Origin: Aminomonas paucivorans DSM 12260
GTDB taxonomy: Bacteria; Synergistota; Synergistia; Synergistales; Synergistaceae
NCBI RefSeq assembly: GCF_000165795.1
Contig: NZ_CM001022.1
Location: 1,893,812-1,957,811, forward strand
Direction of reading: 5' to 3'
Length of the DNA: 64,000 nucleotides
Within the stretch, counting starts at the first letter, position 1. Every line of letters begins with the position of its first letter. The translations under genes and the position numbers were made by a program. Of the stretch, positions 26,233 through 56,356 are shown piece by piece. The notes under the pieces were generated by a model, which was not told the DNA's origin, searched no databases, and worked only from the letters and a program-made list of their open reading frames with translations.

Positions 26233-26680
26233 CGACGCCCCTCCGCTCGGTTTCGTTATGGCCATAATCCTTGCAAACAAGAAAAACAACATACTCAAAC
26301 CACTCAGAGCGAAACAAACCTTCTCCGACCAACCCAGGGGATTATTGGATAAAACTCAAAAAACGACACCCAAGCATATCGCATTTCCATAACAAGCACC
26401 TAGGATTTTTGGCCGATCCCCATCTCACTATGCATGTATAGCCAAATCCACTAAACAAACAGTCCAATCATCTCAATAAACACTATTTTTCTCTTTGTAG
26501 CGTTAGTTTCTTCGGTATCAATAGATAGACCCTTAATAGCCTCTCTAGAAGCCCCCGACTCAAATAGCCCGGATTAACCACCGATAACTACGAATTAATT
26601 CCGCAGCAACAACACTCGAACAACAAAAAATACCATAATTACCCATTTTTATCCATTATACGGCAAGGAATATTTCATTA
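26233..26680. other. AT-rich gap without a recognisable gene
   Basis: About 450 bases between the legF start and the methyltransferase stop. From about 26260 onward it is strongly AT-rich, unlike the GC-rich flanks. No open frame with a ribosome site or protein motif was found, and no convincing terminator, RNA gene or repeat. It probably contains the legF promoter and may be the edge of an imported segment. Confidence 0.6.
26256..26267. promoter_or_regulatory. Short palindrome upstream of legF
   Basis: TTATGGCCATAA, a perfect 12-bp palindrome 24 bases before the legF ATG. It may be a regulator site or a chance occurrence. Confidence 0.2.
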
Positions 26681-27409: not shown

Positions 27410-27438
27410 ATTTCACTACCTCCCCTTCGTTAAGATAG

Positions 27439-31363: not shown

Positions 31364-31364
31364 C

Positions 31365-32528
31365 TCAATCCCTCCCCCGAGGCAGGTCATAGAATCCCTT
31401 CGTTCCGCCAGGCTTCCAGGTACGCAGGATGCGGACCATCTCCGCCGCCGGGTTCCTGCGGCAGGCTTCCTCCCGTTGTCGTCGGGCCTGCCCCTTCATC
31501 GCCGATTCCAGGCAAAAAGAAAGGGCTTCCCGGATCCGCCCCGCGTCGAAGGGGACGTCCAGGACGGTAGGCGGGCGAAGTCGACCCTTCTGTCGGTCCC
31601 CCACGTTCACGGTGGGAGTCCCCAGTAACGGAGCCTCAACGATCCCGCTGGAGGAGTTGCCCAACACCACATCGCTAGCCGCCACGAGAGCCGGATACAG
31701 GCGCCTTCCCAGGGATTCGACAAACCGGCAGGGTTCTCCATGGCGTGCGCAGAACGCGAGGATTTGTTCTCTGATACAGGTTCCTCCCGTGTCCGCATTG
31801 GATCCCGTGAAGACCCAGGTCCCCCAGGGGAACCCCTCCAGGGCCCCCAGCAAAACGCGCACCTGCTCGTCCGGAGAAAGAGAACAGAGTGTCTCCGGAT
31901 GGTACGTCACCACCCCGACAGGAGCCACAAGGGGAAAACCCAACTTCTTCTCCAAATCCTCCCTGCCCAGCAGAGGTTCCCGGGTAAGGGAATCAATACA
32001 GGCGGGTCCCACCTCATGCACCGTTTCGGGGACCTCACCGAGCTGGATCACCCGATCCCGATAGACCGGATAAGACACGAAGTGCAGCGAAGCCATCTTG
32101 GTGACGGCATGACGGATGGCATCGTCGAAGGCCCCTTGGGTCAACTCCCCCCCGTGCAGATGCGCCACCGGAATCCTCGCCACCAGCGCCGCCTGGGCAG
32201 CGGCCAACGTCTCGAATCGGTCTCCCAGCAGCACCACCACATCGGGACGCAAACGGGCGAAGGTTTCCGCGAAGCCGATGGTCCCCAGGCCCAGGGATTT
32301 CCCTACCCCCTCGGCGGAATCGGAGGCCAAAAGCATATCCACCCTTCCGGCAATGGCAAACCCGTCCGCCTCGATCTCCCGAACGGTCTCCCCAAACCGA
32401 GGAACCAAGTGGGTCCCCGTGGCCACCACCTGAAGCTCCAGGTCCCCTGCCGCCTGAATCTCCCGCATGAGCCAGTACAGGAGCCCGTACTCCGCCCGGG
32501 TGCCGGTGACCACGCAGATCTTCCTCAT
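31365..32528 (-). CDS. legG: Hydrolysing UDP/GDP-sugar 2-epimerase (NeuC/LegG type)
   Basis: 387 aa. Seen: VVTGTRAEYGLLYWLM at residues 6-21 (NeuC wording, not the GTRPE of non-hydrolysing enzymes), LLGDRFETLAAAQAAL near residue 101, HLHGGELTQGAFDD near residue 123, YHPET, and LGNSSSGIVEAPLLGTP near residue 290. Releases 2,4-diacetamido-2,4,6-trideoxymannose for LegI. The ATG at 32528 shares ATGA with the legC stop. Confidence 0.9.
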   Translation of the reverse strand: MRKICVVTGTRAEYGLLYWLMREIQAAGDLELQVVATGTHLVPRFGETVREIEADGFAIAGRVDMLLASDSAEGVGKSLGLGTIGFAETFARLRPDVVVLLGDRFETLAAAQAALVARIPVAHLHGGELTQGAFDDAIRHAVTKMASLHFVSYPVYRDRVIQLGEVPETVHEVGPACIDSLTREPLLGREDLEKKLGFPLVAPVGVVTYHPETLCSLSPDEQVRVLLGALEGFPWGTWVFTGSNADTGGTCIREQILAFCARHGEPCRFVESLGRRLYPALVAASDVVLGNSSSGIVEAPLLGTPTVNVGDRQKGRLRPPTVLDVPFDAGRIREALSFCLESAMKGQARRQREEACRRNPAAEMVRILRTWKPGGTKGFYDLPRGRD

Positions 32529-33658
32529 TGATCGCCTTCCGAAAGCACCCGCCGCAGCGCTTCGGCGGCGAAGCGAATCATCCCATCATCGTTGCAGGTG
32601 GACCCGGGGAGGTTCAGCCCCCGGGCGAAGAGATGCTCCGCCACGGGATACGTCCCCTTAGCAAAAGGAGCAAACTGGGGCAGCGCCGGGAGAGGCTGGA
32701 ACACCCGCCGGGTGGGGACTCCCCGTTCCCGGAGGGCTTCCTGCGCGGAGGACACGGAAGCAGTACCTTCAAGCGTCACGGAAGGGAGCCACCAGGAGGG
32801 CAGGCTACCTTCCGGTGCCTGCTGGAAGCGCACCTGCGGCAAGTCGTCCAGGATTTCCCGATAGGCGCCGACGAAATCCCGCTTCTTTTCCAGAAAACCG
32901 GGAAGGCGCTGCAACTGCGCCAGGCCCAGGGCCGCCTCCAGGTTGGTCATGCGGTAATTCCAACCCAGTCCGGTGTGCCAGAACCCCTTCTGCGGGTCTC
33001 GAGCCTGGTTCACCAGGTGCTTGATCCGCCCCCCCAGCTCGTCGTCGTCGGTGACGATCATGCCCCCGCCTCCGGTGGTGAGCACCTTGTTGCCGTTGAA
33101 GCTGAAGCACCCCAGGTGTCCGAAGGTGCCGGTCATGCGCCCCTGGTAGGTTGCCCCCAGGCTTTCCGTGGCATCTTCGATGACCGTCAGGCCGTGTCTC
33201 CTCGCCAATTCCCCCAGCTCGTCCATGGCACAGGGAACCCCGTAGAGATGCACGGGAAGAACAGCCTTAGTTCGGGGGGTGATGGCCCGTTCCACACCCC
33301 GAGGATCCAGGGTCCAGGTCTCCGGGTCCACGTCCACGAACACCGGGACGGCTCCCACGTAGAGGATAGGGTTGGCGGTGGCCACGAAGGTCAGGGCCGG
33401 GCAGATCACTTCGTCCCCAGGGCCGACGCCGGAAACCATCAGGGCCACATGGAGAGCCGCCGTGCCGCTTTGGACGGACACGGCCCGAGCACACCCCACA
33501 TAGGCAGCGAAGCGTTCCTCGAACTCTCCCACGAAGGGGCCCACGGTGGAGACATAGTTTTCATCCACGCACCGACACAGATACTCCTTTTCCAGTTCCC
33601 CCAGGTTCGGGGCATCCAGAAGAAGGGAGCGCTCTTTCGAAGGAATCCCGCCGTTCAT
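32525..33658 (-). CDS. legC: DegT/DnrJ-type PLP aminotransferase
   Basis: 377 aa. Seen: VQSGTAALHVAL near residue 60, EDATESLGATYQG near residue 160, FSFNGNKVLTTGGGG (PLP Lys) near residue 187 and the C-terminal PTRRVFQPL substrate loop. LegC aminates the 4-keto sugar made by LegB. ATG at 33658; GGGGGATGAGG upstream. It is the only DegT-type aminotransferase in the window although a WbpE-like reaction is also expected, so it may act twice or WbpE is elsewhere. Confidence 0.88.
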   Translation of the reverse strand: MNGGIPSKERSLLLDAPNLGELEKEYLCRCVDENYVSTVGPFVGEFEERFAAYVGCARAVSVQSGTAALHVALMVSGVGPGDEVICPALTFVATANPILYVGAVPVFVDVDPETWTLDPRGVERAITPRTKAVLPVHLYGVPCAMDELGELARRHGLTVIEDATESLGATYQGRMTGTFGHLGCFSFNGNKVLTTGGGGMIVTDDDELGGRIKHLVNQARDPQKGFWHTGLGWNYRMTNLEAALGLAQLQRLPGFLEKKRDFVGAYREILDDLPQVRFQQAPEGSLPSWWLPSVTLEGTASVSSAQEALRERGVPTRRVFQPLPALPQFAPFAKGTYPVAEHLFARGLNLPGSTCNDDGMIRFAAEALRRVLSEGDQ

Positions 33659-33683
33659 GATGCCTCATCCCCCTCGGCCCTGC

Positions 33684-34679
33684 TCATAGGATGTACCGGT
33701 CCGTACGGTAGCACGCCAAGTTTCGGGGATCGGAGAACCAGCGGACCGTCTCCTCCAGGCCCCGGCGCAACCCCTCGCGCCCTGCGTACTTCGGCTCCCA
33801 CCCGAAAAGTTCCATCGCCTTGCGGTTGTCCGCCCAGAGGCGCTCCACCTCGGAGTTCTTCGGGCGCAGCCTTTCTTCTTCACAGCAGATGGAGACCTTG
33901 GCCCCCATCACGTCGGCGATCAGCTCTGCCAACTCGCCGATGGAGATCTCGTAGTTGCTGCCCAGGTTGGCCACCTCCCCCACTCCCGCATCGCTTGCAA
34001 GCGCCGCGAGAAACCCGGAAACCGTGTCGGCCACGTAGTTGAAGTCCCGGGTGGGGGAGAGAGCCCCCAGGCGGATCTCCCGGGCTCCCGAGGCGATCTG
34101 GGAGATGATGGTGGGGATCACCGCCCGAGCGGACTGCCGCGGACCGTAGGTATTGAAGGGACGCACCGTCACCACCGGCACCCCGAAGGAGGCGTAGAAC
34201 GAATAGGCCAGTTGATCCGCCGCGATCTTGGAAGCGGAATAGGGAGACTGTCCCTGAAGGGGATGGTTCTCGTCGATGGGAACGTAGCGGGCCGTCCCGT
34301 AGACCTCGCTGGTGGAGGTATGGATCACCCGCCGCACCCCCAGTTCCCGAGCCGCCTGCAGGACGTTGAGCGTCCCCTTGACGTTGGTGTCGATGTAGGA
34401 ATCCGGCGCCCGATAGGAGTAGGGAATGGCGATGAGCGCCGCCAGGTGCAACACCGCCTCGCATCCCTCCATGGCACCTCGAACCCAACGAGGATCCCGT
34501 ACATCCCCGAGAGCAACGTCGAGCTTCGTCGCAAGCTCGGGGGCGATGCGATCCAGCCACCCCCAGGAACCAAGGGAATTGTACAGGCCCACAGCCCGCA
34601 CGACGTACCCTTCCCTGACCAGGGCTTCCGCAAGGTGGGACCCGATGAATCCGTCCGCTCCGGTGACCAGAACGCTCAT
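33684..34679 (-). CDS. legB: Nucleotide-sugar 4,6-dehydratase (LegB type)
   Basis: 331-aa extended SDR. Seen: VLVTGADGFIGSHLAEAL at residues 3-20, YNSLGSWGWLD near residue 33 (characteristic of LegB), HLAALIAIPYSY near residue 79, STSEVYGTARYVP near residue 123, YSASKIAAD (YxxxK) near residue 148 and RPFNTYGPRQSARAVIP. Converts GDP-GlcNAc (Campylobacter scheme) to the 4-keto-6-deoxy sugar. The ATG at 34679 shares ATGA with the preceding radical SAM gene; an open frame continues upstream to 34808 inside that gene and is not used. Confidence 0.9.
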   Translation of the reverse strand: MSVLVTGADGFIGSHLAEALVREGYVVRAVGLYNSLGSWGWLDRIAPELATKLDVALGDVRDPRWVRGAMEGCEAVLHLAALIAIPYSYRAPDSYIDTNVKGTLNVLQAARELGVRRVIHTSTSEVYGTARYVPIDENHPLQGQSPYSASKIAADQLAYSFYASFGVPVVTVRPFNTYGPRQSARAVIPTIISQIASGAREIRLGALSPTRDFNYVADTVSGFLAALASDAGVGEVANLGSNYEISIGELAELIADVMGAKVSICCEEERLRPKNSEVERLWADNRKAMELFGWEPKYAGREGLRRGLEETVRWFSDPRNLACYRTDRYIL

Positions 34680-35797
34680 ACGCAAACCACCAACTTGCCC
34701 TTGTGAGCATGCGACAGTGCCTCTATCTCCATACGAAGAGCTGCCACATCTTCCTTTAAGGGTTTGTGGAACATATTGCACCCAGCGCAGATATCGGGAG
34801 CGCCCCACAAAAAGCTTCGACGAATCTTTCGCAACATCGGGGAGTGAAACACCTTGTTCATCCCCACGACGATGTTGCCCAAAGGCAGTTCGGCAGAAAA
34901 ATCCGCGCAGCAGAGGGATATTTTACCGTCGAAAGAAATTGTCAGCGTATCAAAAGGATAGTTGCAGCTACGTGCCCTTTTAAACTCAAAAGAATAGAAA
35001 TCATCTTTGAGATCCTCCGGGTGTTCCGTGATAAAACGGCTTCCGTCGAAGCGCGTCGTCCCCATGAGGAAGCTGATGCTTATTTTATCGACGAACTCCC
35101 CCCAACAGTCGAGGTATTGAGCTATGTCCGTCTTTTTAGTTAAAAGCAAATGGGCCGATATCTCCGGACGATCCGTGTGTTCCTTCGCGTAGGCGGAGAA
35201 CGAGCACACTTGCTCCTGTATGACATCGAACTTCAACGGATAGCGTAGCTTTTCGTACGACTCTTTGTCCCATCCGTCGATGGAGAGTTGCAGCGTATCC
35301 ACAAGCAAGAGGCTGTCCCGGTGCCTCATGAGGAAAGCGCCGTTAGTGGAGACGCAGATGGACATCCCCTCGGCTTTCAGTCGTCGCACGATCTCGTCGA
35401 AGCAGGGGTGCAGCGTCGGCTCGGAAGTCGCGTACAGGCGAACGTCTTTAATCCTCTGCGCTTTCAGCTCGTTCACGCATCTTTCAAAAAGCTCCATCTT
35501 CATGAAGCCCTTCGTCCGCTCCTCCGGCATGTACACTCGCGGGCAAAACGGGCACTGTGCATTGCAGACGGCGGTGATGTCCAGGATCGCTAAGCTCGGA
35601 CGACGTTTATTCCAAAGATAACGGATAAACGGAACGAAGCGGTGAGGAATGATTGCCCTTACTAGTTCCCTAAAGATCCCCAATTTTAGGACTCCTCTCT
35701 TTTGCTTGTCGACATAATCTCGCAACAGAGGGGGTGCATTTAACCAATTAACTTCCACAACAACCAATTCATGTCTAAATTTTACCTCTGAAGGCAT
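34676..35797 (-). CDS. Radical SAM protein with SPASM-like C-terminus
   Basis: About 373 aa. Seen: LDITAVCNAQCPFC with the CxxxCxxC cluster motif near residue 80, ATSEPTLHPCFDEIV near residue 125, VSTNGAFL near residue 150, LQLSIDGWDKESYEKL near residue 170, and a C-terminal Cys set (CNYPF, SLCCADF, ICAGCNMF) as in SPASM auxiliary-cluster domains. AT-richer than legB, pointing to separate origin. The start is uncertain: ATG 35797 is used; ATG 35866 or TTG 35869 would add 23-24 residues and neither has a good ribosome site. Overlaps legB by ATGA. Related proteins occur in sugar-modification loci, but the reaction is unknown. Confidence 0.78.
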   Translation of the reverse strand: MPSEVKFRHELVVVEVNWLNAPPLLRDYVDKQKRGVLKLGIFRELVRAIIPHRFVPFIRYLWNKRRPSLAILDITAVCNAQCPFCPRVYMPEERTKGFMKMELFERCVNELKAQRIKDVRLYATSEPTLHPCFDEIVRRLKAEGMSICVSTNGAFLMRHRDSLLLVDTLQLSIDGWDKESYEKLRYPLKFDVIQEQVCSFSAYAKEHTDRPEISAHLLLTKKTDIAQYLDCWGEFVDKISISFLMGTTRFDGSRFITEHPEDLKDDFYSFEFKRARSCNYPFDTLTISFDGKISLCCADFSAELPLGNIVVGMNKVFHSPMLRKIRRSFLWGAPDICAGCNMFHKPLKEDVAALRMEIEALSHAHKGKLVVCV

Positions 35798-36051
35798 GAC
35801 AGTAGTTCTCAGGCAGGGCCTATTTTTATTCCATAGAGTTTTCCAAGAGATCAACACAAGGACCATCAAGAGTTTTTTAATCTAACCACTGCTTGGCCAT
35901 TTCCTAGAGAGCAGCTTCCCCTTGTTACACCTCTTGGGCACCACATATCCTGCTTAATCGATGAAAGTAGCATATAAGGCATTTTCCCCGGCTAATTAAG
36001 TTATAACAACCACAAAATGGCTGTTCAATCTCAAAGAAGTTCCAAGGAACA

Positions 36052-36756
36052 TTATCTGTTATCAGATTTGCCATCAGACCTAGCAACTGCAATACTGTCA
36101 AAATACAAGCTAATTGCATTATAAACTAACAAATGACCCAATTTAGTTAAGTGATGCCCATCTTCTATTGTCAGAATGTCGTCTTCGTGCATAAGATAAG
36201 GATTGATATACTCGCAATTCTCATTTAGCTGCGTTATTGTATCAATTGTTCCATTATACAAGGATATATCCTCTGATATTCCATGAACCATCGATTTTAT
36301 ATACCCTCCGGGAGGGCATATCCCAAGCAAACACAGCCTGATACCTTTACATACACATATATCTACAATTTTAGATATATTTTTTTTGAATTTATCAATT
36401 TCAACATACCTCGTGCCGAAGATCTTCGTAAGGGTGTATGAAAACTTCTTTCTTATTTTTTTATAAATAAAACCCACAAGAGGGACGCGAAACAACAAAA
36501 ACTCAAGCCTTTTACCCACAATCCTCTTGCTACAATCACATATTCCCACCTGAACTACGGCAAAATCTGGAGAAAATTCACAAAATAAATCATTTAAGTC
36601 TAAAACCACATCATTTGTGGTTAGACCTCTCCTGAGATAGGTATAAGCCACCCCGTTACTCCCCACTTTTTGCAAGAATTGATATACCCAGGTATCTTGC
36701 ACTGGCATCCCCTTTCTGGGCATGCCCAAAGAGTCAGTAATCAATATTATATTCAA
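36052..36756 (-). CDS. SGNH/GDSL-like hydrolase, AT-rich
   Basis: 234 aa. Block I ITDSLGMP at residues 6-13 (GDS-like Ser), VQVGICDCS near residue 69 in the place of the Gly/Asn blocks, and a C-terminal DGHHLTKLGH (DxxH) near residue 205 fit the SGNH-hydrolase fold used by sugar O-acetyl esterases and acyltransferases. No signal peptide, so it would act in the cytoplasm. TTG start at 36756 is supported by AAGGGTGA upstream. Strongly AT-rich with AT-ending codons, an imported gene between wbpB-like and radical SAM genes. Confidence 0.65.
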   Translation of the reverse strand: MNIILITDSLGMPRKGMPVQDTWVYQFLQKVGSNGVAYTYLRRGLTTNDVVLDLNDLFCEFSPDFAVVQVGICDCSKRIVGKRLEFLLFRVPLVGFIYKKIRKKFSYTLTKIFGTRYVEIDKFKKNISKIVDICVCKGIRLCLLGICPPGGYIKSMVHGISEDISLYNGTIDTITQLNENCEYINPYLMHEDDILTIEDGHHLTKLGHLLVYNAISLYFDSIAVARSDGKSDNR

Positions 36757-36777
36757 AAAACTTCACCCTTTGCAATT

Positions 36778-37797
36778 TTATCCGCGTTTGCTTTCCGCAA
36801 AACCGTAAACCCCTTCAATTAGTTCAACTGTTTTCCTGCCTTCTCTGGCATTCACCACTTTAGCCTCCACTCCCACAGCTGCATTCAACACATTTTCGTA
36901 AACAAACTTATGCCCACTTCCATAAACACTCTTCGGTTCGTAACCAACAGATTTTACTTGTTGATCCATTACATCGTCATCGGCAAACTGCCACTGCTCG
37001 ATGCGGTTCATGGCCACTCCTCCTACACGCACGGTGCCCCTCTCTCCCATGACGGTGATGCTGCCCTCCAGGTTGCGGGGGTAGGTGAGGACGGAGACGT
37101 TGATGCTGCCGATGGCACCGCTGCGGAACTTGAGGCCTACGGTGATGGTGTCCTCCGCCTCGATGCGCCGTCCCAGGGTGGAGGAGAGGGCGAAAACCTG
37201 CTCCACCGAACCGCCCATCCACTGGACCATGTCCACGTAGTGGGCCGCCTGGTTGGACAGGCACCCTCCATCGAACTCCCAGGTGCCCCGCCAGGGGGCC
37301 TGGTCGTAATACTCCTGCGGGCGGGTCCAGAAGACGTTGGCGGTGATCATGTGGAGGCGTCCGAAACGCCCTGCCTCCAAAGCCCGACGCAGCAGCCGGA
37401 TGGGGGGGTTGAGGCGGTTCTGCTTGACCTCCATGTAGAGAACCCCCGCCTCGTCGCAGACCCGGATGGCCTCGTCCACCGCCGCCAGAGAGGTCCCCAA
37501 GGGCTTTTCGGAGAGCACGTGCCTGCCCGCCCGGGCCGCCTGAATGGCATGGCGGGGGTGAAGCCCCGAAGGGGTGCAGAGGGAGACGAGGTCGCACTCC
37601 ACCTCCCGAAGCATGGTCGCGTAGTCCGTGAAGGGACGGCATGGGGAACCGGCGACGGCCGCTGCCGCCTCTGCCCGGTCCGAGAGGAGGTCGCAGACCC
37701 CCACCAGTTGGGCCTTCCCCTCCTGTCGAAGGGCTTCGATGGCCTCGATGTGGTTTTTGCTGATGCGGCCGCAGCCGACCAAGGCGATGCGCAGCAT
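36778..37797 (-). CDS. wbpB: Gfo/Idh/MocA oxidoreductase (WbpB/WlbA-like)
   Basis: 339 aa. Seen: RIALVGCGRISKNHIEAI near the N-terminus (Rossmann), LCTPSGLHPRHA near residue 76, SEKPLGTSLAAVD near residue 98 (EKP motif), and GGCLSNQAAHYVDMVQWM near residue 176 with the catalytic His. WbpB-type enzymes oxidise C3 of UDP-GlcNAcA before amination. WbpA-, WbpI- and WbpD-like genes lie just upstream in transcription order, supporting this. ATG at 37797 has GGAGGT 8 bases upstream; a TTG at 37806 overlaps that site. The last part of the coding sequence is less GC-rich, next to the AT-rich neighbour. Confidence 0.78.
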   Translation of the reverse strand: MLRIALVGCGRISKNHIEAIEALRQEGKAQLVGVCDLLSDRAEAAAAVAGSPCRPFTDYATMLREVECDLVSLCTPSGLHPRHAIQAARAGRHVLSEKPLGTSLAAVDEAIRVCDEAGVLYMEVKQNRLNPPIRLLRRALEAGRFGRLHMITANVFWTRPQEYYDQAPWRGTWEFDGGCLSNQAAHYVDMVQWMGGSVEQVFALSSTLGRRIEAEDTITVGLKFRSGAIGSINVSVLTYPRNLEGSITVMGERGTVRVGGVAMNRIEQWQFADDDVMDQQVKSVGYEPKSVYGSGHKFVYENVLNAAVGVEAKVVNAREGRKTVELIEGVYGFAESKRG

Positions 37798-41954: not shown

Positions 41955-42239
41955 TCACGGAGCGATCCTGTGAGGCATGGGAGGGATCTCCTTCGAGAAA
42001 CGGCAATGCCAGAAGCTCCAGGAGCGGGGCGAGAACTGCCCCATCTCCGCATGGGCCAAGACCTCCGCCAGTTCCTCGGGGGTGAAGAGCGCCGTCATGC
42101 GGCACCAGTCCTCCCACACTCCAAGGTTCATCACCTGGGCCAGGATCCTCCGGGGACACGCAAGGGCCTCCTCGGGCTGCTGCCACCAAAGATACCGCCC
42201 TGCGGCCTCCAAGAGAAAAGCCCTCTGCAACGGGCTCAT
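41955..42239 (-). CDS. Small conserved protein, DUF6922-like
   Basis: 94 aa, no known activity. Seen: MSPLQRAFLLEAAGRYLWW at the N-terminus, MNLGVWEDWCRM near residue 37, FTPEELAEVLAHAE and FSPRSWSFWHCRF near residue 69, a pattern recalled from small proteins encoded beside AbiEii-type nucleotidyltransferases and other mobile accessory genes. ATG at 42239 shares ATGA with the end of the TOPRIM-like gene, so it is the third member of an ATPase/TOPRIM operon. The family assignment is from memory of the motif and is tentative. Confidence 0.55.
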   Translation of the reverse strand: MSPLQRAFLLEAAGRYLWWQQPEEALACPRRILAQVMNLGVWEDWCRMTALFTPEELAEVLAHAEMGQFSPRSWSFWHCRFSKEIPPMPHRIAP

Positions 42240-42883
42240 TCACCCTGCCTCCTGGGAACGGGCCCCCTCTCCCGCGCCAACCGAAGCATTGTATCCAACA
42301 GATCCTGAAGCTGCGGGCACTTCTCACAGGCCCTGTCCGGGTCCAGCCGGCTGAAAAGGTCCCTTCCGTTAATGACCTTTTTGTAGGGATGCTTCGTATG
42401 TTGACGATAGAGACGATCCAAGAGCTTCGCTGGTGGTTCGTCGAAGTTCACCGTTTCCGGATCCACGATCTTTCCCGGGAAAGCATTACGGACACCTAAA
42501 GGGAAAAGGTCCGGCTGGCTCAGGAGCCAGGCCTCCACTTCGTGAACGGCGAAGCAATGAAAGAATTTTTCTTCCTTCACCTGGTTCTCCAACTCCCGTT
42601 TCCCCCAGGCAACTCGCTCGTCTATGCCCGTCAAGTGCACCGGGTAGATCGTCGGTCCATAAAGATCCAAGAGAGAGATCACCGCGATGATCTTATCCTT
42701 TGAAGAACCCTTCAAATACATCTTCGCCTTCTTCGCCGCACTTTGCCAAAGATCCGGCCAACCGTCAAAACGAACGGTCTGTATGCCGACGGGAAAGTCC
42801 AGCTTCGGATCAAGCCATCTCTTCAAAAACGCGGGAAGCGCCTTGTCTTCTGTGTGCCCTTCAACAAACAGAATAAACTTCAT
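42236..42883 (-). CDS. DUF4276-family TOPRIM-like protein
   Basis: 215 aa. Seen: ILFVEGHTEDKALPAFL at residues 4-20 (TOPRIM Glu), ISLLDLYGPT near residue 75 (Asp-x-Tyr-Gly in place of DxD, usual in DUF4276), and CFAVHEVEAWLLS near residue 112. It is coupled to the upstream AAA ATPase by ATGA and to the next small gene by ATGA. Such ATPase+TOPRIM pairs are common in anti-phage systems, in which the TOPRIM protein is usually the nuclease. GC content is lower than in wbpD. Function is inferred from context. Confidence 0.78.
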   Translation of the reverse strand: MKFILFVEGHTEDKALPAFLKRWLDPKLDFPVGIQTVRFDGWPDLWQSAAKKAKMYLKGSSKDKIIAVISLLDLYGPTIYPVHLTGIDERVAWGKRELENQVKEEKFFHCFAVHEVEAWLLSQPDLFPLGVRNAFPGKIVDPETVNFDEPPAKLLDRLYRQHTKHPYKKVINGRDLFSRLDPDRACEKCPQLQDLLDTMLRLARERGPVPRRQGE

Positions 42884-44064
42884 GACATCTGCTCCAGTTC
42901 CCCGGACTTGAAGAGGGTGCCAAGGGAGTACTCCTGCAACCAGTAGTCCAATTCTTTGCCGTTCAGGGTCCGAAGCACCGTCTCTCCGTTCTTCCAATCC
43001 GACACGGTGGTGACAGGCTTCGTCTCCGTGAAGGCATCCAGCAGTTGAGTGGAGTGGGTCGTCAGGACGACCTGGGAGCGGGAAGCCGCATCCACCGCAA
43101 ACTCCGCCACAAGAGGCAGCATGGACGGGTGAAGTCCCGTCTCCGGTTCATCGATGGCGATCACCGAAGGAGGCGAGGGGTTTGCAAAGACCGCCAACAA
43201 GAGGAGAAAGCGAAGCGTTCCGTCGGACATCTCCGCCGTCGATTGTTCTCGTTTCAGCGTCTTCCAGCGAATCCGCATCTGCACTCTCTGGTCGGAAGCA
43301 GGGGGGAAAACCAGCTCCTCAAAATCGTCGCCAAAGGCACCTCGCATGGCAAGATGGAGATCCCGCTTGAACTCCCGGTCTCCCGTGTACAACGTGTGAA
43401 GCACCGAGACGAGGTTCTGTCCATCCGGATCCACTCGATCCTCCCTTCGGGCAACCACGGGGCCACGGACCGGGGCATTTCTATGGGTAAGGATGTCGTG
43501 GTAAACGGCTATCGAAGCCAGCTCCCGCTGGAAGGGCGGAATGCGCGGGTTATGAGTGAAGGGACCGGAAGCCAGGGAGAGCAGGGTCTCCTCCTCCGAA
43601 ATAAAATCCTCGGGAGTGGTAAAACGTTTTTGTTCTACGTCAAAAAGAACGGCGGTCTTCCCCTTTCGATCAAGGAAAACAAAGGGCTGTTCCTTCAAAC
43701 CTGATCGCACATCGAAAGAATTGATCAGGCGTTCGCTTCCGATCCGGTAGGAACTGCTGGTTCCCAGCCGGGCCATTTCCAGCTCGTATTGTTCCGGGGC
43801 TCGATCATCCCCTAGAGTGGTCGTCTTCAGGACACACCGGATGGAAGGGGCTTCCCCGTCCCAAACGATCGGGTCCATGCCTCCCAGGGACTGGATGTGC
43901 TTGCCCAGCCTGCCTTGGGCGGACAGGGAGAGAAGTTCCAGAAAGCGCAGCAGATTGGACTTGCCGCTTCCGTTGGGGCCGATGATGATGTTGAGGTTCC
44001 CGGGCCGCCAGCTCACATTGCGGAGGGAACGATAGCCTTCGATATCCAACTGTTCGATGTTCAT
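42880..44064 (-). CDS. AAA ATPase (AAA_21 type) of an ATPase/TOPRIM pair
   Basis: 394 aa. Seen: IEGYRSLRNVSW near residue 10, Walker A IIGPNGSGKSNLL near residue 29, signature-like AEMSDGTLRFLLLLAVFAN near residue 275, Walker B VIAIDEPETGLHPSML near residue 300 and the H-loop VVLTTHSTQLLDAF near residue 328. It is an SMC/RecF-like soluble ATPase, not a transporter. AGGAGGTGG precedes the ATG at 44064. Overlaps the DUF4276 gene by ATGA. Together they resemble the AbiL-like group; activity untested. Confidence 0.85.
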   Translation of the reverse strand: MNIEQLDIEGYRSLRNVSWRPGNLNIIIGPNGSGKSNLLRFLELLSLSAQGRLGKHIQSLGGMDPIVWDGEAPSIRCVLKTTTLGDDRAPEQYELEMARLGTSSSYRIGSERLINSFDVRSGLKEQPFVFLDRKGKTAVLFDVEQKRFTTPEDFISEEETLLSLASGPFTHNPRIPPFQRELASIAVYHDILTHRNAPVRGPVVARREDRVDPDGQNLVSVLHTLYTGDREFKRDLHLAMRGAFGDDFEELVFPPASDQRVQMRIRWKTLKREQSTAEMSDGTLRFLLLLAVFANPSPPSVIAIDEPETGLHPSMLPLVAEFAVDAASRSQVVLTTHSTQLLDAFTETKPVTTVSDWKNGETVLRTLNGKELDYWLQEYSLGTLFKSGELEQMS

Positions 44065-44212
44065 CGTTTCCACCTCCTAAGGTTGCCGGGTCCCGGGACG
44101 GGACACGTTTTTGCGGCGAGAACCATCCTTCGGAGCAGGCTCCTTGAGGAAGCGGCAGGAGATAGGACAGGGCTCCGTCAACGGCGAAGCAAGGACGGCC
44201 AAGGAAGAACGA

Positions 44213-44791
44213 TCATGGATAGTCCTGCATGGGGACGATGCGGGTTCGATACTCTCTGCATGCCATGGCCAGAGAATCAGGAGCACCCGGGGGCAGAGCC
44301 TTCGCCTTGCACGCGGAAGCAAGATTTGAAATACATGATCGGCAATCAATAACCATTGCCTTCCCCATCGCCTTGTAATCCTGCCCCTCGTCCACGTCGC
44401 ACCCCTCAAGATAGGCAATCCACGTTTCAATGTTACGTTTAGGGACGGCAATCGCGACAGCTTCCTCCTGCGTCCTGAAGGGAAGCCCTATCCTTGTACA
44501 GTGATCCTCAAGAGATTTTATCCTAGTTTCAACCCTTTGGTTGTCCGCATCAATCATTACAATGAGCGCCGAGGCTACCTTGTTTTTGTGCTGCCTGTAA
44601 TACTGAAGCTCCTTGGGAAAACTCTGCAGAACCCATCCAGAAGCAGCACCTTTACCCGAGGGACTTGTTTCGTATCGGATAGCAGCCCAGCGTTTCTTTC
44701 CCCACCCCATTGCCAGCAGAAAGTGTCTGACAAAAAACTCCTGCTGCTTGTCCTCGCAGAGAGCGACTATTTGCACACGACGCCTCTTCAC
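44213..44791 (-). CDS. TOPRIM-like protein of a second ATPase pair, unnamed family
   Basis: About 192 aa. Seen: VQIVALCEDKQQEFFVRHFL at residues 6-25 (Glu-Asp of a TOPRIM start), ALIVMIDADNQ near residue 76 (DxD), and VPKRNIETWIAYLEG near residue 116. It appears to be a TOPRIM-fold protein distinct from DUF4276 and I cannot name its family. The GTG at 44791 shares GTGA with the ATPase stop and begins right at the conserved part; an ATG at 44842 would overlap the ATPase by 55 bases. Likely effector of the pair. Confidence 0.65.
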   Translation of the reverse strand: MKRRRVQIVALCEDKQQEFFVRHFLLAMGWGKKRWAAIRYETSPSGKGAASGWVLQSFPKELQYYRQHKNKVASALIVMIDADNQRVETRIKSLEDHCTRIGLPFRTQEEAVAIAVPKRNIETWIAYLEGCDVDEGQDYKAMGKAMVIDCRSCISNLASACKAKALPPGAPDSLAMACREYRTRIVPMQDYP

Positions 44792-45927
44792 TCTTGCCAA
44801 CCCCTGGCGATGCGTTCTGACAGCTTCAGCGGCTGCCCCCATGCTCCCGCTTCGCCTTTACCTTCTTCCTCGCTCAATGCAATAGCTCGAATTCTTGCTG
44901 GGCCGAGAGGCTCTCGATCCATCCATAGTCCGTAGGCTCCCCCAAGATAATCGATCAACTCGGGGTTGTGGCTGATCAAAACCGCTTGTACCTCTTCTTC
45001 TGCACAAAGGTCACTCAGTTCTACAAGCCATGGCTGAATCTCATCAATGCTTAAATAATTGCCCGGCTCATCCAAAAATAGAGTGCGATGCTGCCCCTCT
45101 ACGTCACACAAAAGAGAATAAAGGACAAGAAGAATACGCTGTCCATCGGACAGTCGGTCAAAATCAAAGTAAAAGGGAGATGACCCATGTATCTCTTCGT
45201 CTGCAAACCCCACTCTTAACACTCTTGTATTTCCTTCTTGTTCCAGTTTAAAGGAATAAAAGCCAGGAACAATCTCTTTCAATCGATTTATTAGAGAAAA
45301 GATCCTATCCTGATGTTCCTGGGATAAATAGCGATACCAAGAGGCAAAATTTGCACCGCTGTATTCCAGTCTCGATGATTCTTCGGAGGCTAAGGCGGTC
45401 ATGTCCTGTGGAAGAGGCTTTAGAATGATCATTTGCTCCAGCCAGTTTTTAAACCAAGTCAACTTCGTATTGTCTGACCGAGAGATAATGGTCGACAAAG
45501 AAGAGTAACTCCAGTCAAAGGGGTAGATGGGGCCTGGTTCATGATCGTCATGGAAGAGGTGTACTGAACCTTGCTCGTAGCGAAAGAGCGGATTCCCATT
45601 AAATAGCAGCTCTTCAAGGTCGACCCTTTCTTTCTTGCGATCCTTCGTATGCCCTATGGCAAGTCTATAGGCATACAAGCCCCCATTGCCCTCAACATCC
45701 ACCTCAAAGCGCTGTTCGTCCCGGGCTACCCAACTGGTCAAGTCCTCGGGGGGGAAAACCTCTGTCACTTTCGCTCCGTTTGTCACAAAACGACGAATTC
45801 TATCCACAATATCAAAAACAGTTGACTTTCCACAACCGTTTGCCCCCATAATCAGGTGCAACGAGCCAAACTTCACCTCAAAGTTCACTAAACAACGAAA
45901 ATGATTCACATAAAGCCGACGAAGCAT
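44788..45927 (-). CDS. AAA ATPase (AAA_21/RecF-like) of the second pair
   Basis: 379 aa. Seen: LYVNHFRCLVNFEVKF near the N-terminus, Walker A IMGANGCGKSTVFD near residue 26, RLSDGQRILLVLYSLL near residue 262, Walker B TLFLDEPGNYLSIDEI near residue 285, and the H-loop AVLISHNPELIDYLGG near residue 318. The Walker B Asp-Glu is intact. Only weakly similar in wording to the ATPase at 42880-44064, so the two pairs are not a simple duplication. GGAGGGGG precedes the ATG at 45927. Codon use is less GC-biased than in galE. Confidence 0.83.
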   Translation of the reverse strand: MLRRLYVNHFRCLVNFEVKFGSLHLIMGANGCGKSTVFDIVDRIRRFVTNGAKVTEVFPPEDLTSWVARDEQRFEVDVEGNGGLYAYRLAIGHTKDRKKERVDLEELLFNGNPLFRYEQGSVHLFHDDHEPGPIYPFDWSYSSLSTIISRSDNTKLTWFKNWLEQMIILKPLPQDMTALASEESSRLEYSGANFASWYRYLSQEHQDRIFSLINRLKEIVPGFYSFKLEQEGNTRVLRVGFADEEIHGSSPFYFDFDRLSDGQRILLVLYSLLCDVEGQHRTLFLDEPGNYLSIDEIQPWLVELSDLCAEEEVQAVLISHNPELIDYLGGAYGLWMDREPLGPARIRAIALSEEEGKGEAGAWGQPLKLSERIARGWQE

Positions 45928-46008
45928 GCAGGCCCCCCCTCCCTCGTCCCTCATTCCCCAATCAACCGGACGAATCCCCCAAACCCCTGAGCTTGGCTAC
46001 CGGGCAGC

Positions 46009-49678: not shown

Positions 49679-51538
49679 TCACCGATCCCCCACCCCGGAG
49701 GGCGGGACGTCCTCGCAGAGGGCAAAGAGTTCCTGGCGCAGCCGGTCTTCCGGCAGCGCCGTCAGGGCTCGGATCTTCTCCGCCATGCCCCCGTCCCGAC
49801 GATCCAGGCGGGCCCGAAAGATCTTGTCGTGGGAAGTCCGGTCCACGTGGTCCGGGTCGTAGAAAAGCTCCTCGAAGAGCTTTTCCCCCGGACGGATGCC
49901 CGAGTAGACGATGGGGATGTCCCGGTGGGGCTCCAGGCCGTGGAGGCGGATCAGGGTCTCCGCCATCTGGGCGATGACCACGGGTTCCCCCATGTCCAGG
50001 ACGAAAAGTTCCCCCCCCCGGCCCATGGAGGCCGCCTGCAGGACCAGGCTTACCGCCTCGGGGATGAGCATGAAGTAGCGCCGCATTTCCGGGTGGGTCA
50101 CCGTGACGGGACCTCCCCGGGCGATCTGGGCCTCGAACTTGGGCACCACGCTGCCTCGGCTCCCCAGGACGTTGCCGAAACGCACCGCCAGGAAGGCGGT
50201 CCCCGGGAAGGCCGACTGAGCCTCCTCCAGCATCCGCTCCGCCAGGCGCTTGGTGGCCCCCATGACGCTGCTGGGGTGCACCGCCTTGTCCGTGGACACC
50301 ATCACCATCCGCTCGGCCCCGACCTCCCCCGCCAGAGAGGCCACGTTCCAGGTGCCCAGGGCGTTGACCCGCAGGGCCTCCCGAGGGTTCTCCTCCATGA
50401 GAGGAACGTGCTTGTGCGCCCCCGCGTGGAACACCACTTGGGGGTGGTGGGTCTCGAAGAGCCGACGCAGGGTGGCTTCGTCCCCCACGTCCGCCACCAG
50501 GGGACGGCAGGGGATCGTCACCCCCTCCTCGGAGAACCGCTCCAGCAGGTTGTAGAGGGACTGTTCCCCGTGTCCCAGCACCAGCAGGGACCGAGGTCCG
50601 TGGGCCAGCACCTGGCGGCAGATCTCCGACCCGATGGACCCCCCCGCCCCGGTGACCAGCACGGTCCGCCCCCGAAGCACCCGGTCGATGCCCTCCAGGT
50701 CCAGTCGGATGGGCTCCCGGCGCAGCAGGTCCTCCAGGCTCACGGAGCGAAGGCGGGAGACGGAGACCGCCCCGGAAGCCAGCTCATGCAGGGCCGGGAG
50801 GACCCGCACCTCCACCCCCAGGGGAGAGAGACGCTCCAGGAAGGCCCGGATCCGCTGCCCCGAGGCGGAGGGGAGGGCGATGAGCACCACCCGGACCCCC
50901 CGCTGCCTCACGATCTCCCCCAGTTCCGCCGCATCCCCCAACACCGGTAGGGAGGCGATGATCTTGCCCCGCTTGTCCGGATCGTCGTCCACGAACCCCA
51001 GGGGAACCAGGTCGTCCCCCCGGCGCAGCAGGTCCCGGGCAAGCCGGGACCCCGCGTCCCCCGCCCCCACGATCAGGGTGGGGCGGGGCTCCGCCGTTCC
51101 CTCCAAGGGGGGCCGCACCACCCGCCAGGAGGCCCGGAAGGCCACCAAGAAGAAGAGACCCAGGAGGAGGAGGATCGCCAGAGAGGTGCGGGGGACCGTC
51201 AGGTCCGTCCAGAGACGGTCGATCAGGAGGAACCCCAGGGCCCCCAGGGCGTAGCCCCGCCCCAGGCGCAGGTATTCCTCCACGCTGGCCTGGGGCCAGT
51301 AGACCCGGTAGACCCCGCAGACCCAGAGGGCGAGGAGAGTGACGGGGACGAAGGCCAGGGCTGCCCGGAGCAGATCGTCCCGGAAACCCTGCTGGATGAG
51401 GAGGGTGAGACGCAGGGCGTACCCCAGGTAGACCGCCGCGGCAAGCAGAAAAAGGTCGCCCGCCAGGACCCGTCGGTTCCTGGAGGCGACCTTCATCCAC
51501 CCGGTCACGAGGCTTCGGGAAAGGCCGGTCACGCTCAT
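49679..51538 (-). CDS. wbpM: Membrane-bound UDP-GlcNAc 4,6-dehydratase (WbpM/PglF/CapD family)
   Basis: 619 aa. Four or so hydrophobic segments in residues 20-135, a first Rossmann-like domain (TLIVGAGDAGSRLARDLL near residue 154), and a second SDR domain (VLVTGAGGSIGSEICRQVL near residue 294) with VSTDKAVHPSSVMGATKRLAE near residue 412, where Met replaces the catalytic Tyr, and RFGNVLGSRGSVVPKF. Makes UDP-4-keto-6-deoxy-GlcNAc, the substrate for the WbpV-like reductase at 11467. Start at ATG 51538 has no clear ribosome site; ATG 51496 is possible. Confidence 0.9.
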   Translation of the reverse strand: MSVTGLSRSLVTGWMKVASRNRRVLAGDLFLLAAAVYLGYALRLTLLIQQGFRDDLLRAALAFVPVTLLALWVCGVYRVYWPQASVEEYLRLGRGYALGALGFLLIDRLWTDLTVPRTSLAILLLLGLFFLVAFRASWRVVRPPLEGTAEPRPTLIVGAGDAGSRLARDLLRRGDDLVPLGFVDDDPDKRGKIIASLPVLGDAAELGEIVRQRGVRVVLIALPSASGQRIRAFLERLSPLGVEVRVLPALHELASGAVSVSRLRSVSLEDLLRREPIRLDLEGIDRVLRGRTVLVTGAGGSIGSEICRQVLAHGPRSLLVLGHGEQSLYNLLERFSEEGVTIPCRPLVADVGDEATLRRLFETHHPQVVFHAGAHKHVPLMEENPREALRVNALGTWNVASLAGEVGAERMVMVSTDKAVHPSSVMGATKRLAERMLEEAQSAFPGTAFLAVRFGNVLGSRGSVVPKFEAQIARGGPVTVTHPEMRRYFMLIPEAVSLVLQAASMGRGGELFVLDMGEPVVIAQMAETLIRLHGLEPHRDIPIVYSGIRPGEKLFEELFYDPDHVDRTSHDKIFRARLDRRDGGMAEKIRALTALPEDRLRQELFALCEDVPPSGVGDR

Positions 51539-52121: not shown

Positions 52122-53015
52122 ATGGACGGGTCGTTTCGCGTGAAGTGGCAGGGGCTGCGGTTGGCGGCGCTGGTGCGGGCGGAGTGGCCCACCTTCGTCT
52201 CCACCACCCTGGGCTGTCTGATCCTGGTGGTGGGCATCATGGGCTTCACCGTGCCCTATCGCTTTCCCGACTCGGGCATCACGGGATTGGCGGTGCTGGC
52301 CAACTACGTCTGGAACATCTCCCCCGCCTGGGTGGTGGGACTGGCCAACGTGGCCCTCCTCGCCTGGAGCTGGAAAGAACTCTCCCCCCGCTTCGTCCTC
52401 TGGACCATCTACGGGGTGGCCCTGCTGACGGTGCTCATGAAGGTGCTGGAGGGGATGCCCCACCCGGTGATCCACGACCGGCTCCTGGTGGCCATCCTGG
52501 CGGGGGTCATCAAGGGCATCGGGGGGGGGATGGTGTTCCGAAGCGGCGCCTCCCTGGGAGGCACGGACATCATCGTGGTGGCCCTGCGGAAGCGCTACGG
52601 CGTGGAGGTGGGCAAGTACACCTTCTACATCAATTTAGGGGTGCTCACCCTGTCCGCCTTCGTGGTGGGCATCGAGGGGGCCCTCTTCGGGCTGGTGAGC
52701 GTCTACGCCAACGGGGTGGTGACGGACAACGTCCTGAGCAGCTTCGACCGAAGGCGGCTGGTGTTCATCGTGTCCAAGGAATCCGCCTCCGTGACCCGGT
52801 ACCTCACCGACCACATGCACCGGGGGGTGACGGTGCTCTCCGGCAAGGGAGGGTTCTCCGGGGAGGACCGCCCCACCCTGCTGTGCCTCCTCACTCCCCG
52901 CCAGACCATGGAACTGAAACACTACCTGGCCCTGAACGACCCCCGGGCCTTCATGGTGGTCTCCGAGGCCTCGGAGGTCCTGGGCCGGGGCTTCAAGGGA
53001 TGGAAGGAGATTTGA
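52122..53015 (+). CDS. YitT-family membrane protein with DUF2179 domain
   Basis: 297 aa. Five or six membrane segments in residues 25-205 (STTLGCLILVVGIMGFTVPY, LLVAILAGVIKGIGGGMVF), the DUF161-type GASLGGTDIIVVALRKRYG near residue 147, and a soluble C-terminal DUF2179 domain from about residue 215 (RGVTVLSGKGGFSGEDRPTLLCLL). Physiological role unknown in most bacteria. GGGGGAGGAG precedes the ATG at 52122. Its stop overlaps the start of the flippase gene, so the two are linked. Confidence 0.88.
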   Translation: MDGSFRVKWQGLRLAALVRAEWPTFVSTTLGCLILVVGIMGFTVPYRFPDSGITGLAVLANYVWNISPAWVVGLANVALLAWSWKELSPRFVLWTIYGVALLTVLMKVLEGMPHPVIHDRLLVAILAGVIKGIGGGMVFRSGASLGGTDIIVVALRKRYGVEVGKYTFYINLGVLTLSAFVVGIEGALFGLVSVYANGVVTDNVLSSFDRRRLVFIVSKESASVTRYLTDHMHRGVTVLSGKGGFSGEDRPTLLCLLTPRQTMELKHYLALNDPRAFMVVSEASEVLGRGFKGWKEI

Positions 53016-54622
53016 GCGGCCCATCCCTCCCCGAGCGGCTCCGCAACGGCATCCACCGTATCCTGGGGGTCAAGGAGGCCCGCAGCGCCACCTTGGTGCT
53101 CACCTTCCTGACCCTGGCAGGGAAACCGTTTAATTACTTAAGAATACTGCTAGTGGCTAGTTTCTTTGGAGCTTCCCTTGAAATGGATGTTTTCAACGTT
53201 GCCTTTGGCATTATGTGGCTATTTGCAGGAACAGCCGGTTCTGCAATGGAGAATGCCGTTTTGCCGCTATTGGCTCACAAAAGAGAAACAGAGGGGGAAA
53301 CGTCTGCCAAAAAAACAATGGCATTGGCTTGGTGGATTTTAATTTTATATTCCATGTTTTTATTTTTTACTATTTTGGCGTCATCTGAACAAATAATTAA
53401 ACTATTTGCAAGTGGGTTCGATCAAAATAGACTAAGTATCGGTCGATCTATGCTTTTTTGGCTTTTACCATATACTATATCTACAATATTAAAATCAGGG
53501 TTCGATATTTGGGCCCAGCATTCCGGGAAATATTCTCTTTCTGCATTTGCCTCCTCGTTTTCCGGATTATTATCTTTAATTGCCTTCTTGGCGACCTATT
53601 CGTGGTTAGGTGTTTTTTCTATCCCTTTTTCTTTTAGTTTTTCGTGGTTTATAGTATCATTGTTAACCAAACTAGGCGTAAGAGATTTCCCATTCTGCTT
53701 AGCAGATTTCGATCGTAATTCTGTTTTTGAAATACTAAAACCTACGCTATTGTCGCTGATTTTTCTTGGTACAGGAGCACTTTACGGCATGACAGACAGA
53801 TATTTTGCGTCTCTTCTGCCCATTGGATCTATTACCACTATAAGCTATGCTGATTTTATATTTGGGGCAGTTTCTATAATAACAACCCCTTCTTTGTTAC
53901 TTTTTTTATCAAAGAGCAGCAGACTGGCTGCCAATGCCAGTTCAACGAATGACTATACCTCATTTTATTCCAGCGTAACCCAAGCCCTTGTAATTGTTTT
54001 GTTTTTGTTCTTTCCACTGGGTATCGTGCTATCCGGCGTTTCCATCTCGCTAGTTGACATTGTCATTGGGCACGGTGCATTTTCGTTTGATTCTGTTATT
54101 TTAACTGGCAATTGTCTTGCTGCGTACGCATTGGCAATGCCAGCATCCCTTGGCTGTGTTGTTTTCTTTAGAATCGCCCAGGCACAAAAAAAACTAGTCG
54201 GGCTAGCCTTTGTGAGTTTACAGCTGGTATGTGTCAACGCCCTGGGGGATTGGGCCCTCTCCCGGGCCTTCGGGGCCCCGGGGATCGCCGCGGCCACAAG
54301 CATCGTCTACTCGGTGGGGTTTCTGCTCTACGGGCACTGGCTGCTTCCGGGGTGGTGGCGACACGTGGGGATGGGGGCGCTGGCGAAACAGTGCGCCCTG
54401 ACGGCCCTCTGGGCGGGGGCCTTGGGGTGGCTGGACCGGGTGGCGTTCTTCGGGAGCTGGACCCCCTGGATCGTGGCCCCCCTGGCGGGGATCGGCACGA
54501 TCCTGCACTTTCTGCTGGTGGAACGGCTGGGCTGGCTGGACGCCCTCCCTCGGGGCTGGAAGCCCACGGAGCTGCTGGAACTGGTCCTCAGTCGGCTGCG
54601 CCGCAGACCTTCGGAGGAGTAG
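53000..54622 (+). CDS. Wzx/MurJ-like lipid-linked glycan flippase, mosaic
   Basis: About 540 aa with some 12-14 hydrophobic segments, the pattern of MOP/MurJ-type flippases that move undecaprenyl-linked oligosaccharides across the inner membrane. The N-terminal EMDVFNVAFGIMWLFAGTAGSAMENAVLPLL block is like MurJ-type proteins. The first 43 codons and last ~128 are GC-rich like the region, but residues ~43-412 are AT-rich with AT-ending codons. Start uncertain: ATG 53000 (16-base overlap with yitT) or TTG 53012 (TTGA overlap). The 3' end overlaps the convergent ROK gene by 35 bases. Confidence 0.75.
   Translation: MEGDLSGPSLPERLRNGIHRILGVKEARSATLVLTFLTLAGKPFNYLRILLVASFFGASLEMDVFNVAFGIMWLFAGTAGSAMENAVLPLLAHKRETEGETSAKKTMALAWWILILYSMFLFFTILASSEQIIKLFASGFDQNRLSIGRSMLFWLLPYTISTILKSGFDIWAQHSGKYSLSAFASSFSGLLSLIAFLATYSWLGVFSIPFSFSFSWFIVSLLTKLGVRDFPFCLADFDRNSVFEILKPTLLSLIFLGTGALYGMTDRYFASLLPIGSITTISYADFIFGAVSIITTPSLLLFLSKSSRLAANASSTNDYTSFYSSVTQALVIVLFLFFPLGIVLSGVSISLVDIVIGHGAFSFDSVILTGNCLAAYALAMPASLGCVVFFRIAQAQKKLVGLAFVSLQLVCVNALGDWALSRAFGAPGIAAATSIVYSVGFLLYGHWLLPGWWRHVGMGALAKQCALTALWAGALGWLDRVAFFGSWTPWIVAPLAGIGTILHFLLVERLGWLDALPRGWKPTELLELVLSRLRRRPSEE
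53128..54236. other. AT-rich central segment of the flippase gene
   Basis: About 1.1 kb of AT-rich coding DNA with sharp edges: the left change is near the GGGAAACCG at 53120-53128 and the right near GTGTCAACGCC at 54231-54241. The reading frame is kept across both edges. Fits replacement of the gene centre by recombination with a foreign allele. Confidence 0.7.
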
Positions 54623-55526
54623 GCAGCCCCGCCGCCCCCAAGAGGGGCGCATCCGCCCCCAGGAGGGAAACCCGCAGGTCCAGGACGGCCCGGTACGGCT
54701 CCGCCAGGTAGGGCAGGGTCCGCTCCCGAAGCAGGGAGACCAACCCCTCCCCCCGGGCGATGCCTCCCCCCAGCACCACCACCTCCGGGTCCAGCAGGTG
54801 GACCAGGGAGGCCACACCCCGGGCCAGGGCATCCAGAAAGGGCTCCAGACATGCCGCGACAGCCCGTTCCTCCTGCCGCCCCCACAGGGTCCGTACGTCC
54901 TCCGGCAGACCCAAGGCTCGGGCACGGGCCTCGATGCCGTCCGCCCCCGCCAGGGTCTCCAGGTGTCCCCGCCCCCCGCAGCCGCAGGGAAGGTCCCCTC
55001 CCGTCACCAGGTGCCCCAGCTCCCCCGCCATGCCGTGGGAACCCGCGACCAGCCGCCCCCCCAGGACCACGCCTCCCCCCACCCCGGTGCCCAGGGTGAG
55101 GACCACGTAGTCCGAACACCCTCGTGCGGCCCCGGCCAGGCCCTCCCCCAGGGCGTAGGCGTTGGCGTCGTTTTCCAGGGCCACAGGAACCGGAAGCCCC
55201 GCATCCCTCAGAAGCGCTTCCAGGTTCCGGGCCAGGGGAAGACCGTCCCACCCGGGAAAGTTGGGACCCTTGAGGAAGAGCCGGCGGTCCCGGTCCACCA
55301 TCCCCGGCACCACGAGCCCCGCCCCGACCACGGGGAGCCCCCGAGACACCTCCCGAACCCCCTCCGCCAGGGCGGCCAGCACCGGCTCCGGGTCCCTTCC
55401 CGACGGGGTGGGGCGTTCGCACCGGCATACCAGCTCGGGAATCTCCCCAGGGCGAAACCGCACCGTCCCAAAGGCCAGGGTGTGCCCCCCCAGGTCCGCC
55501 CCGACGCGGAAGACGTCGCCGGTCAT
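54588..55526 (-). CDS. ROK-family sugar kinase
   Basis: 312 aa. Seen: FRVGADLGGHTLAFGTVRF near the N-terminus (phosphate-1 region), LENDANAYALGEGLAGAA near residue 116, VLTLGTGVGGGVVLGG near residue 140, and GELGHLVTGGDLPCGCGGRGHLETLAG near residue 165. The ROK zinc motif CxCGxxGCxE is present as CGCGGRGHLE, with His for the last Cys. Probable glucokinase-like activity; could be for another hexose. ATG at 55526 shares ATGA with the D-aminopeptidase stop. Confidence 0.88.
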   Translation of the reverse strand: MTGDVFRVGADLGGHTLAFGTVRFRPGEIPELVCRCERPTPSGRDPEPVLAALAEGVREVSRGLPVVGAGLVVPGMVDRDRRLFLKGPNFPGWDGLPLARNLEALLRDAGLPVPVALENDANAYALGEGLAGAARGCSDYVVLTLGTGVGGGVVLGGRLVAGSHGMAGELGHLVTGGDLPCGCGGRGHLETLAGADGIEARARALGLPEDVRTLWGRQEERAVAACLEPFLDALARGVASLVHLLDPEVVVLGGGIARGEGLVSLLRERTLPYLAEPYRAVLDLRVSLLGADAPLLGAAGLPTPPKVCGAAD

Positions 55527-56356
55527 CCGTCGGCCCTCACGCTCAGGGCGGAGGTGAGCGCCCCCTCGAACCAGCGCCGGATCTCCAGGGGATCCGGGGT
55601 GACGAAGCGCAGAGTGCGCCCGTCCATCCGTTCCCCCCCCGGGACCAGGGAGGCTCCGTCGGCCTGGTAGGTACACTGGAAGCGCACGTCCAGTCGATAG
55701 GGACCCGGGGGTGTCCAGCAGGACAGGCGTCCCGCCCCGAGACGTCCCACTGCCTCCCCCACGGCCTCGGAAAGCCGGTCCGCCGCCGCTTCCGGAGTCA
55801 GCAGCCGGGCGGAGAAACGTCCCAGTCCCTCCTTCACGGCACAGGTCACCAGGTCCTCTCCCAGGAGGGCGGAGGCCTCGTAGCCCACCGCCTCGTCCCC
55901 CGTCACCAGGGCCACGGGGACCCCCAGGGCCCCGCACAGAAAGGCGTTGAGTCCCGTCTCCCCCACCAGGCGCCCCCCCAGGCGCACCTCGTGGATCGCC
56001 CCGGTGGACATGGTGTGGTCCAACACCGCCTTCTCCGTCCCCGCCATGGCGTGGTACCCCACGAAGAACGCCCCGTCGCACCCCTGGGCTCCCTCCACCA
56101 TTCCCAGGACCCGAGGGGTTCCGCTGATCAGCTCCACCTCCTCGGGCAGGTCCCGGGCTTCCAGGTTGATCATGCGGTCGTGGGAGTCCGCCACCACCAC
56201 AGAACACCCCTCCCGAAGCAGCGTCTCCGCCACGGTCCGCACGTCGTGGAGCATCATGGCCCGACCCAGGGCGTACTCCTCCGTCCCCGCATCCACCTGG
56301 CAGGGCCGCACGATGCCCGTGCACCCCTCCATGTCCGCGCTGATGAAGATCCTCAC
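55523..56356 (-). CDS. D-aminopeptidase, peptidase family M55 (DppA-like)
   Basis: 277 aa. Seen: RIFISADMEGCTGIV near the N-terminus (metal-binding Asp-x-Glu), VVVADSHDRMINLE near residue 54, GYHAMAGTEKAVLDHTMS near residue 100, GETGLNAFLCGALG near residue 130 and VTGDEAVGYEA near residue 150. Zn-dependent removal of N-terminal D-amino acids from peptides. GTG at 56356 shares GTGA with the upstream flavin oxidoreductase; GGAGGAGGG precedes it. Common in amino-acid-fermenting anaerobes. Confidence 0.93.
   Translation of the reverse strand: MRIFISADMEGCTGIVRPCQVDAGTEEYALGRAMMLHDVRTVAETLLREGCSVVVADSHDRMINLEARDLPEEVELISGTPRVLGMVEGAQGCDGAFFVGYHAMAGTEKAVLDHTMSTGAIHEVRLGGRLVGETGLNAFLCGALGVPVALVTGDEAVGYEASALLGEDLVTCAVKEGLGRFSARLLTPEAAADRLSEAVGEAVGRLGAGRLSCWTPPGPYRLDVRFQCTYQADGASLVPGGERMDGRTLRFVTPDPLEIRRWFEGALTSALSVRADG

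Follow-up and report, generated by a model that had tools for sequence, protein, structure and literature searches.

Within the 64,000-nucleotide stretch of the Aminomonas paucivorans DSM 12260 genome analysed here (the window; contig NZ_CM001022.1, positions 1,893,812 to 1,957,811), the gene for a MurJ/Wzx-like flippase of the MOP superfamily is a sharply bounded intragenic mosaic, with a long AT-rich core set between GC-rich ends (Table 1). We consider it probable that about 1.1 kb of a resident flippase gene was swapped in frame for the homologous segment of an AT-rich genome. An intragenic mosaic is a known and ordinary kind of event; its occurrence in this glycan flippase is new, and the composition of the gene documents within-gene transfer in a Synergistota glycan flippase with unusual clarity. 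To our knowledge, the surface glycans of Synergistota have been little studied.

Table 1 Features of the flippase gene and its locus, in window coordinates; helix positions follow the AlphaFold model.
Feature	Position	Strand	Description
CapD/PglF-like nucleotide-sugar dehydratase gene	49679..51538	-	Pfam Polysacc_synt_2; locus neighbour also in relative L070
yitT-family membrane protein gene	52122..53015	+	Upstream of flippase; Pfam YitT and DUF2179; same order in ten relatives
MOP-superfamily (MurJ/Wzx-like) flippase gene	53000..54622	+	540 aa; Pfam MurJ, 103.5 bits
GC-rich native 5' end	53000..53116	+	Codons 1-39; amphipathic helix and first half of TM1; GC3 0.87
5' junction interval	53111..53129	+	Change-point support; conserved motif SKPxGYxR
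AT-rich foreign core	53117..54233	+	Codons 40-411 (~372 codons); mid-TM1 to mid-TM11; GC3 0.35
3' junction interval	54221..54239	+	Change-point support; just 5' of conserved motif NAxLDW
GC-rich native 3' end	54234..54622	+	Codons 412-540; rest of TM11, TM12-TM14; GC3 0.90
ROK-family gene	54588..55592	-	Convergent with flippase; Pfam ROK

Composition of the flippase gene

The frame is open without a break from the ATG at 53000 to the stop codon at 54622 (540 codons), as the sequence-only reading of this DNA had said, and GC3 is about 0.89 across both ends versus 0.35 in the core. A two-change-point fit placed the maximum-likelihood boundaries at 53117 and 54233 (log-likelihood gain 77), within about 10 bp of the switches from GC-rich to AT-rich and back that the same reading had put at 53128 and 54236; the junction intervals in Table 1 enclose two units of support around each change-point. 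Using a two-state DNA model, we delimited an AT-rich segment at 53123-54237 with 39% GC, against a mean GC of 0.673 in a 483-kb sample taken entirely from this genome (the window, the adjoining 19 kb and 20 stretches of 20 kb). Throughout this sample, the core is the sole AT-rich segment >1 kb that lies within one open frame flanked by GC-rich coding DNA, and the only other such segment >600 bp, at 42352-42957, is milder (GC 0.51).

At fourfold sites, GC stands at 0.96 in yitT; within the flippase it drops from 0.88 at the N-terminal end to 0.37 in the core and returns to 0.94 at the C-terminal end. The core is foreign also at codon positions 1 and 2 (GC12 0.42) and in amino-acid make-up, with a FYMINK fraction of 0.29 versus 0.12 in the C-terminal end, which resembles GC-rich relatives (GC12 0.62, GC3 0.90). 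In dinucleotide distance from the genome, the core (210) lies beyond every one of 340 size-matched background windows (maximum 203), and the distances of both flanks are ordinary.

The encoded protein aligns through both junctions without insertions or deletions against full-length relatives, and in the structural model both junctions fall inside helices, TM1 and TM11. No flanking repeats were found at the junctions, and site-specific insertion was rejected on that ground. Beside the 5' junction, residue 45 (53132-53134) is N, at a position that is G in 36 of 36 relatives; beside the 3' junction, residue 416 (54245-54247) is G where 94% of relatives have L. Substitutions of this sort are unusual, both positions being nearly invariant.

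Identity and locus of the flippase

The flippase gene is the second MurJ-family gene of the genome. It matches Pfam MurJ and, weakly, MatE, without a match to PF01943, and its score to the TIGR01695 MurJ equivalog (125.2 bits) lies far below the cut-off of 235.55. A full MurJ gene is encoded elsewhere in the genome (1816759-1817970; 332 bits to PF03023 versus 104 for the flippase), and identity with the lipid II flippase MurJ was rejected on these two grounds. The AlphaFold model (pLDDT 88.8) has the two six-helix lobes and the additional TM13-14 of a MurJ-like fold, and its best PDB match in Foldseek is MurJ 6nc6 (E 2.5e-13, TM-score 0.75), followed by WzxE. Helices were assigned on this model by helix order and pseudo-symmetry, with TM1 predicted at residues 27-56, TM11 at 399-424, TM12 at 426-448, TM13 at 458-482 and TM14 at 488-509.

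The protein thus classified shares with MurJ (PF03023/TIGR01695) the fold, the 14-helix plan and the cavity arginines R48 and R267, but it falls short of the equivalog score, has YADF in place of the YADR motif and, like its relatives, is linked to glycan genes. With Wzx proteins such as WzxE it shares the MOP fold, the linkage to nucleotide-sugar genes in relatives and a patchy, accessory distribution, although it lacks a PF01943 match and carries MurJ-type C-terminal helices TM13-14. A profile search found no PF01943 Wzx above its cut-off in this genome, and among the genes found with the PF03023 and PF01943 profiles the flippase is the best candidate for a Wzx-like surface-glycan flippase; its putative role is probably the export of sugar building blocks.

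The linkage to glycan biosynthesis genes expected of a Wzx-type flippase was found in the locus itself, which contains capD, and beside the relatives, where UDP-GlcNAc 2-epimerase, UDP-sugar dehydrogenase or GT2 genes occur. The window also encodes UDP-GlcNAc 2-epimerases, a UDP-sugar dehydrogenase and a NeuB-type nonulosonate cluster. The flippase gene shares 16 bp with the end of yitT and 35 bp with the ROK gene. The order capD-DUF-yitT-flippase recurs in one relative (L070), and in ten genomes from four other genera of the family the flippase comes immediately after yitT. Members of the sister genus (L033-L035, L089, L090) have the ROK gene directly behind yitT, with no flippase between, and two of its three species carry the flippase elsewhere, beside nucleotide-sugar genes.

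Relatives and source of the core

We found homologues at 27-36% identity in 35 of 188 Synergistota genomes, including this one, and close matches of the flippase subfamily are confined to Synergistota. The compositional contrast is specific to the gene studied here: ends-minus-core GC3 is +0.55, versus -0.02 ± 0.04 (range -0.11 to 0.06) in 36 aligned relatives, all of them Synergistota from outside the genus Aminomonas, which places the gene 13.7 SD outside this group. An AT-rich centre is present in 0 of the 36, and the GC-rich ones have a core GC3 of 0.85-0.91. A profile common to the relatives, named beforehand in the sequence-only reading as the outcome that would speak against recombination, was looked for and is absent from the set.

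The core resembles DNA from an AT-rich genome that has not yet ameliorated. Its composition (GC12 0.42, GC3 0.35) is close to that of the flippase resident in G109, a relative with low GC (GC12 0.43, GC3 0.37), which suggests a fairly recent event. No close donor was found in one genome each of ~85,000 species or in the 188 Synergistota genomes, the best core match being 35-38% identical. Carriage of the core by a phage or plasmid was rejected, as no relative of the flippase was found in viral contigs or plasmids. A silent cassette, or gene conversion within the genome, was likewise rejected: neither a further copy nor a cassette of the core occurs in the genome, and the only other substantial match is MurJ, at 22% identity.

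The window gene forms a lone long branch in both a core tree and an ends tree. For the core, the preferred placement is with the sister genus (70/62), and for the ends it is with the yitT-linked clade (71/70). None of the placements submitted to the AU test was excluded for the core or for the ends; this difference is not significant, and it is from composition alone that we infer recombination. Of the earlier proposal that a core was replaced between native ends, the presence of a foreign core between native ends is supported by the sharp junctions and the flat relatives; the trees do not place the two parts in different clades at a significant level.

Proposed origin and alternatives

The recipient would have been a resident, GC-rich, Wzx-like flippase gene of the Synergistota 'DRYFAS' subfamily, and the donor a homologue from a genome of ~40% GC, probably another member of the Synergistota. 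Codons 40-411 would have been exchanged for the matching segment, with junctions adjoining the two conserved motifs, putatively by two crossovers at short conserved stretches. Homologues at ~30% identity are too distant for ordinary homologous recombination, which would require a more closely related donor than the searches turned up. Given the conserved locus and the overlap with both neighbours, we favour the replacement of an internal segment. Crossovers beyond the limits of the gene would be liable to disrupt the overlapping yitT and ROK genes, and the ends probably stayed native because both neighbours are spared only when the crossovers fall within the gene. Synteny suggests that the resident allele acted as the recipient.

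The opposite direction, in which a gene acquired whole from an AT-rich donor later had its ends exchanged for, or joined to, native flippase sequence rich in GC, seems improbable to us. The adjacency of yitT and ROK in the sister genus speaks for it, as it would fit an insertion of the flippase in this lineage. On the other hand, the flippase stands behind yitT in the ten relatives from other genera, so its loss from the sister genus is the simpler account, and native flippase ends imply a resident flippase in any case.

Assembly error or contamination, with sequence from two genomes joined, is very improbable. Composition by itself would be compatible with such a chimera, but the reading frame and the alignment register with full-length relatives are kept at both junctions, and the source appears to be a finished type-strain genome (2,630,170 bp, one contig). 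The Aminomonas paucivorans GLU-3 genome has been described as finished, at 2,630,120 bp with one gap in the rDNA region (PMC3035310).

We give almost no credence to a structural or selective constraint that would render the centre of such flippases AT-rich on account of its membrane helices: AT skew is negative throughout the core, in keeping with the preference of membrane helices for T at the second codon position, but the flat profiles of the relatives, GC-rich ones among them, remove this explanation, the C-terminal end is also transmembrane and yet GC-rich at third positions, and the depletion of GC in the core extends to fourfold sites.

Extent of the proposed exchange and the headgroup cavity

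In the in-frame replacement that we favour, the exchanged part would, on the structural model, span the headgroup cavity from TM1 to TM11, and TM12-14 would be native. The core carries the cavity residues R48, D63, D266 and R267, of which R48 and R267 align with conserved arginines of the genome's own MurJ. From this alignment, R48 and R267 may correspond to R24 and R255 of T. africanus MurJ, both functionally required in that protein, and the TM13-14 groove of MurJ has been proposed to hold the lipid tail (PMC6465408). With the cavity in the exchanged segment and the TM13-14 groove native, it is plausible that glycan preference changed and the lipid side was retained; the gene product would putatively flip an undecaprenyl-linked surface-glycan unit. 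The sequence-only reading held that the substrate-determining core had been swapped, and the location of the cavity residues agrees with this. Its further description of the gene as a direct record of glycan antigen switching overreaches, antigen switching being no more than plausible.

More speculatively, and with considerable doubt on our part, the headgroup-cavity module from TM1 to TM11 may be exchanged as a unit in these flippases, the TM13-14 groove and the neighbour-overlapping ends staying native, so that substrate switching would be modular. If this were true, the gene would provide a naturally occurring chimera with which the determinant of glycan preference in a MOP flippase could be located. 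We found little directly on point in the literature on mosaic wzx genes. The pneumococcal wzx, among the recombination-affected genes in the emergence of serotype 6D (PMC5850285), is similar in that flippase genes of surface-glycan loci recombine. In the pneumococcal case, however, a probable source has been named and there is a difference in serotype, whereas the piece exchanged here is confined to the interior of a single gene (1.1 kb).

Other features of the window

The nonulosonic-acid-type cluster occupies 24084-36756 and encodes NeuB, an epimerase, an aminotransferase, a dehydratase and a cytidylyltransferase. It contains two AT-rich stretches, 26251-27522 (37% GC) and 34676-36989 (44% GC), that look like genes acquired separately. 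At 42236-45954, where GC is lower than in the surroundings, two AAA ATPase genes are each followed by a small gene, one of them encoding a DUF4276 protein. These pairs match the PADLOC candidate defence models HEC-01A/HEC-01B, and the region is possibly a defence insert within the glycan region.
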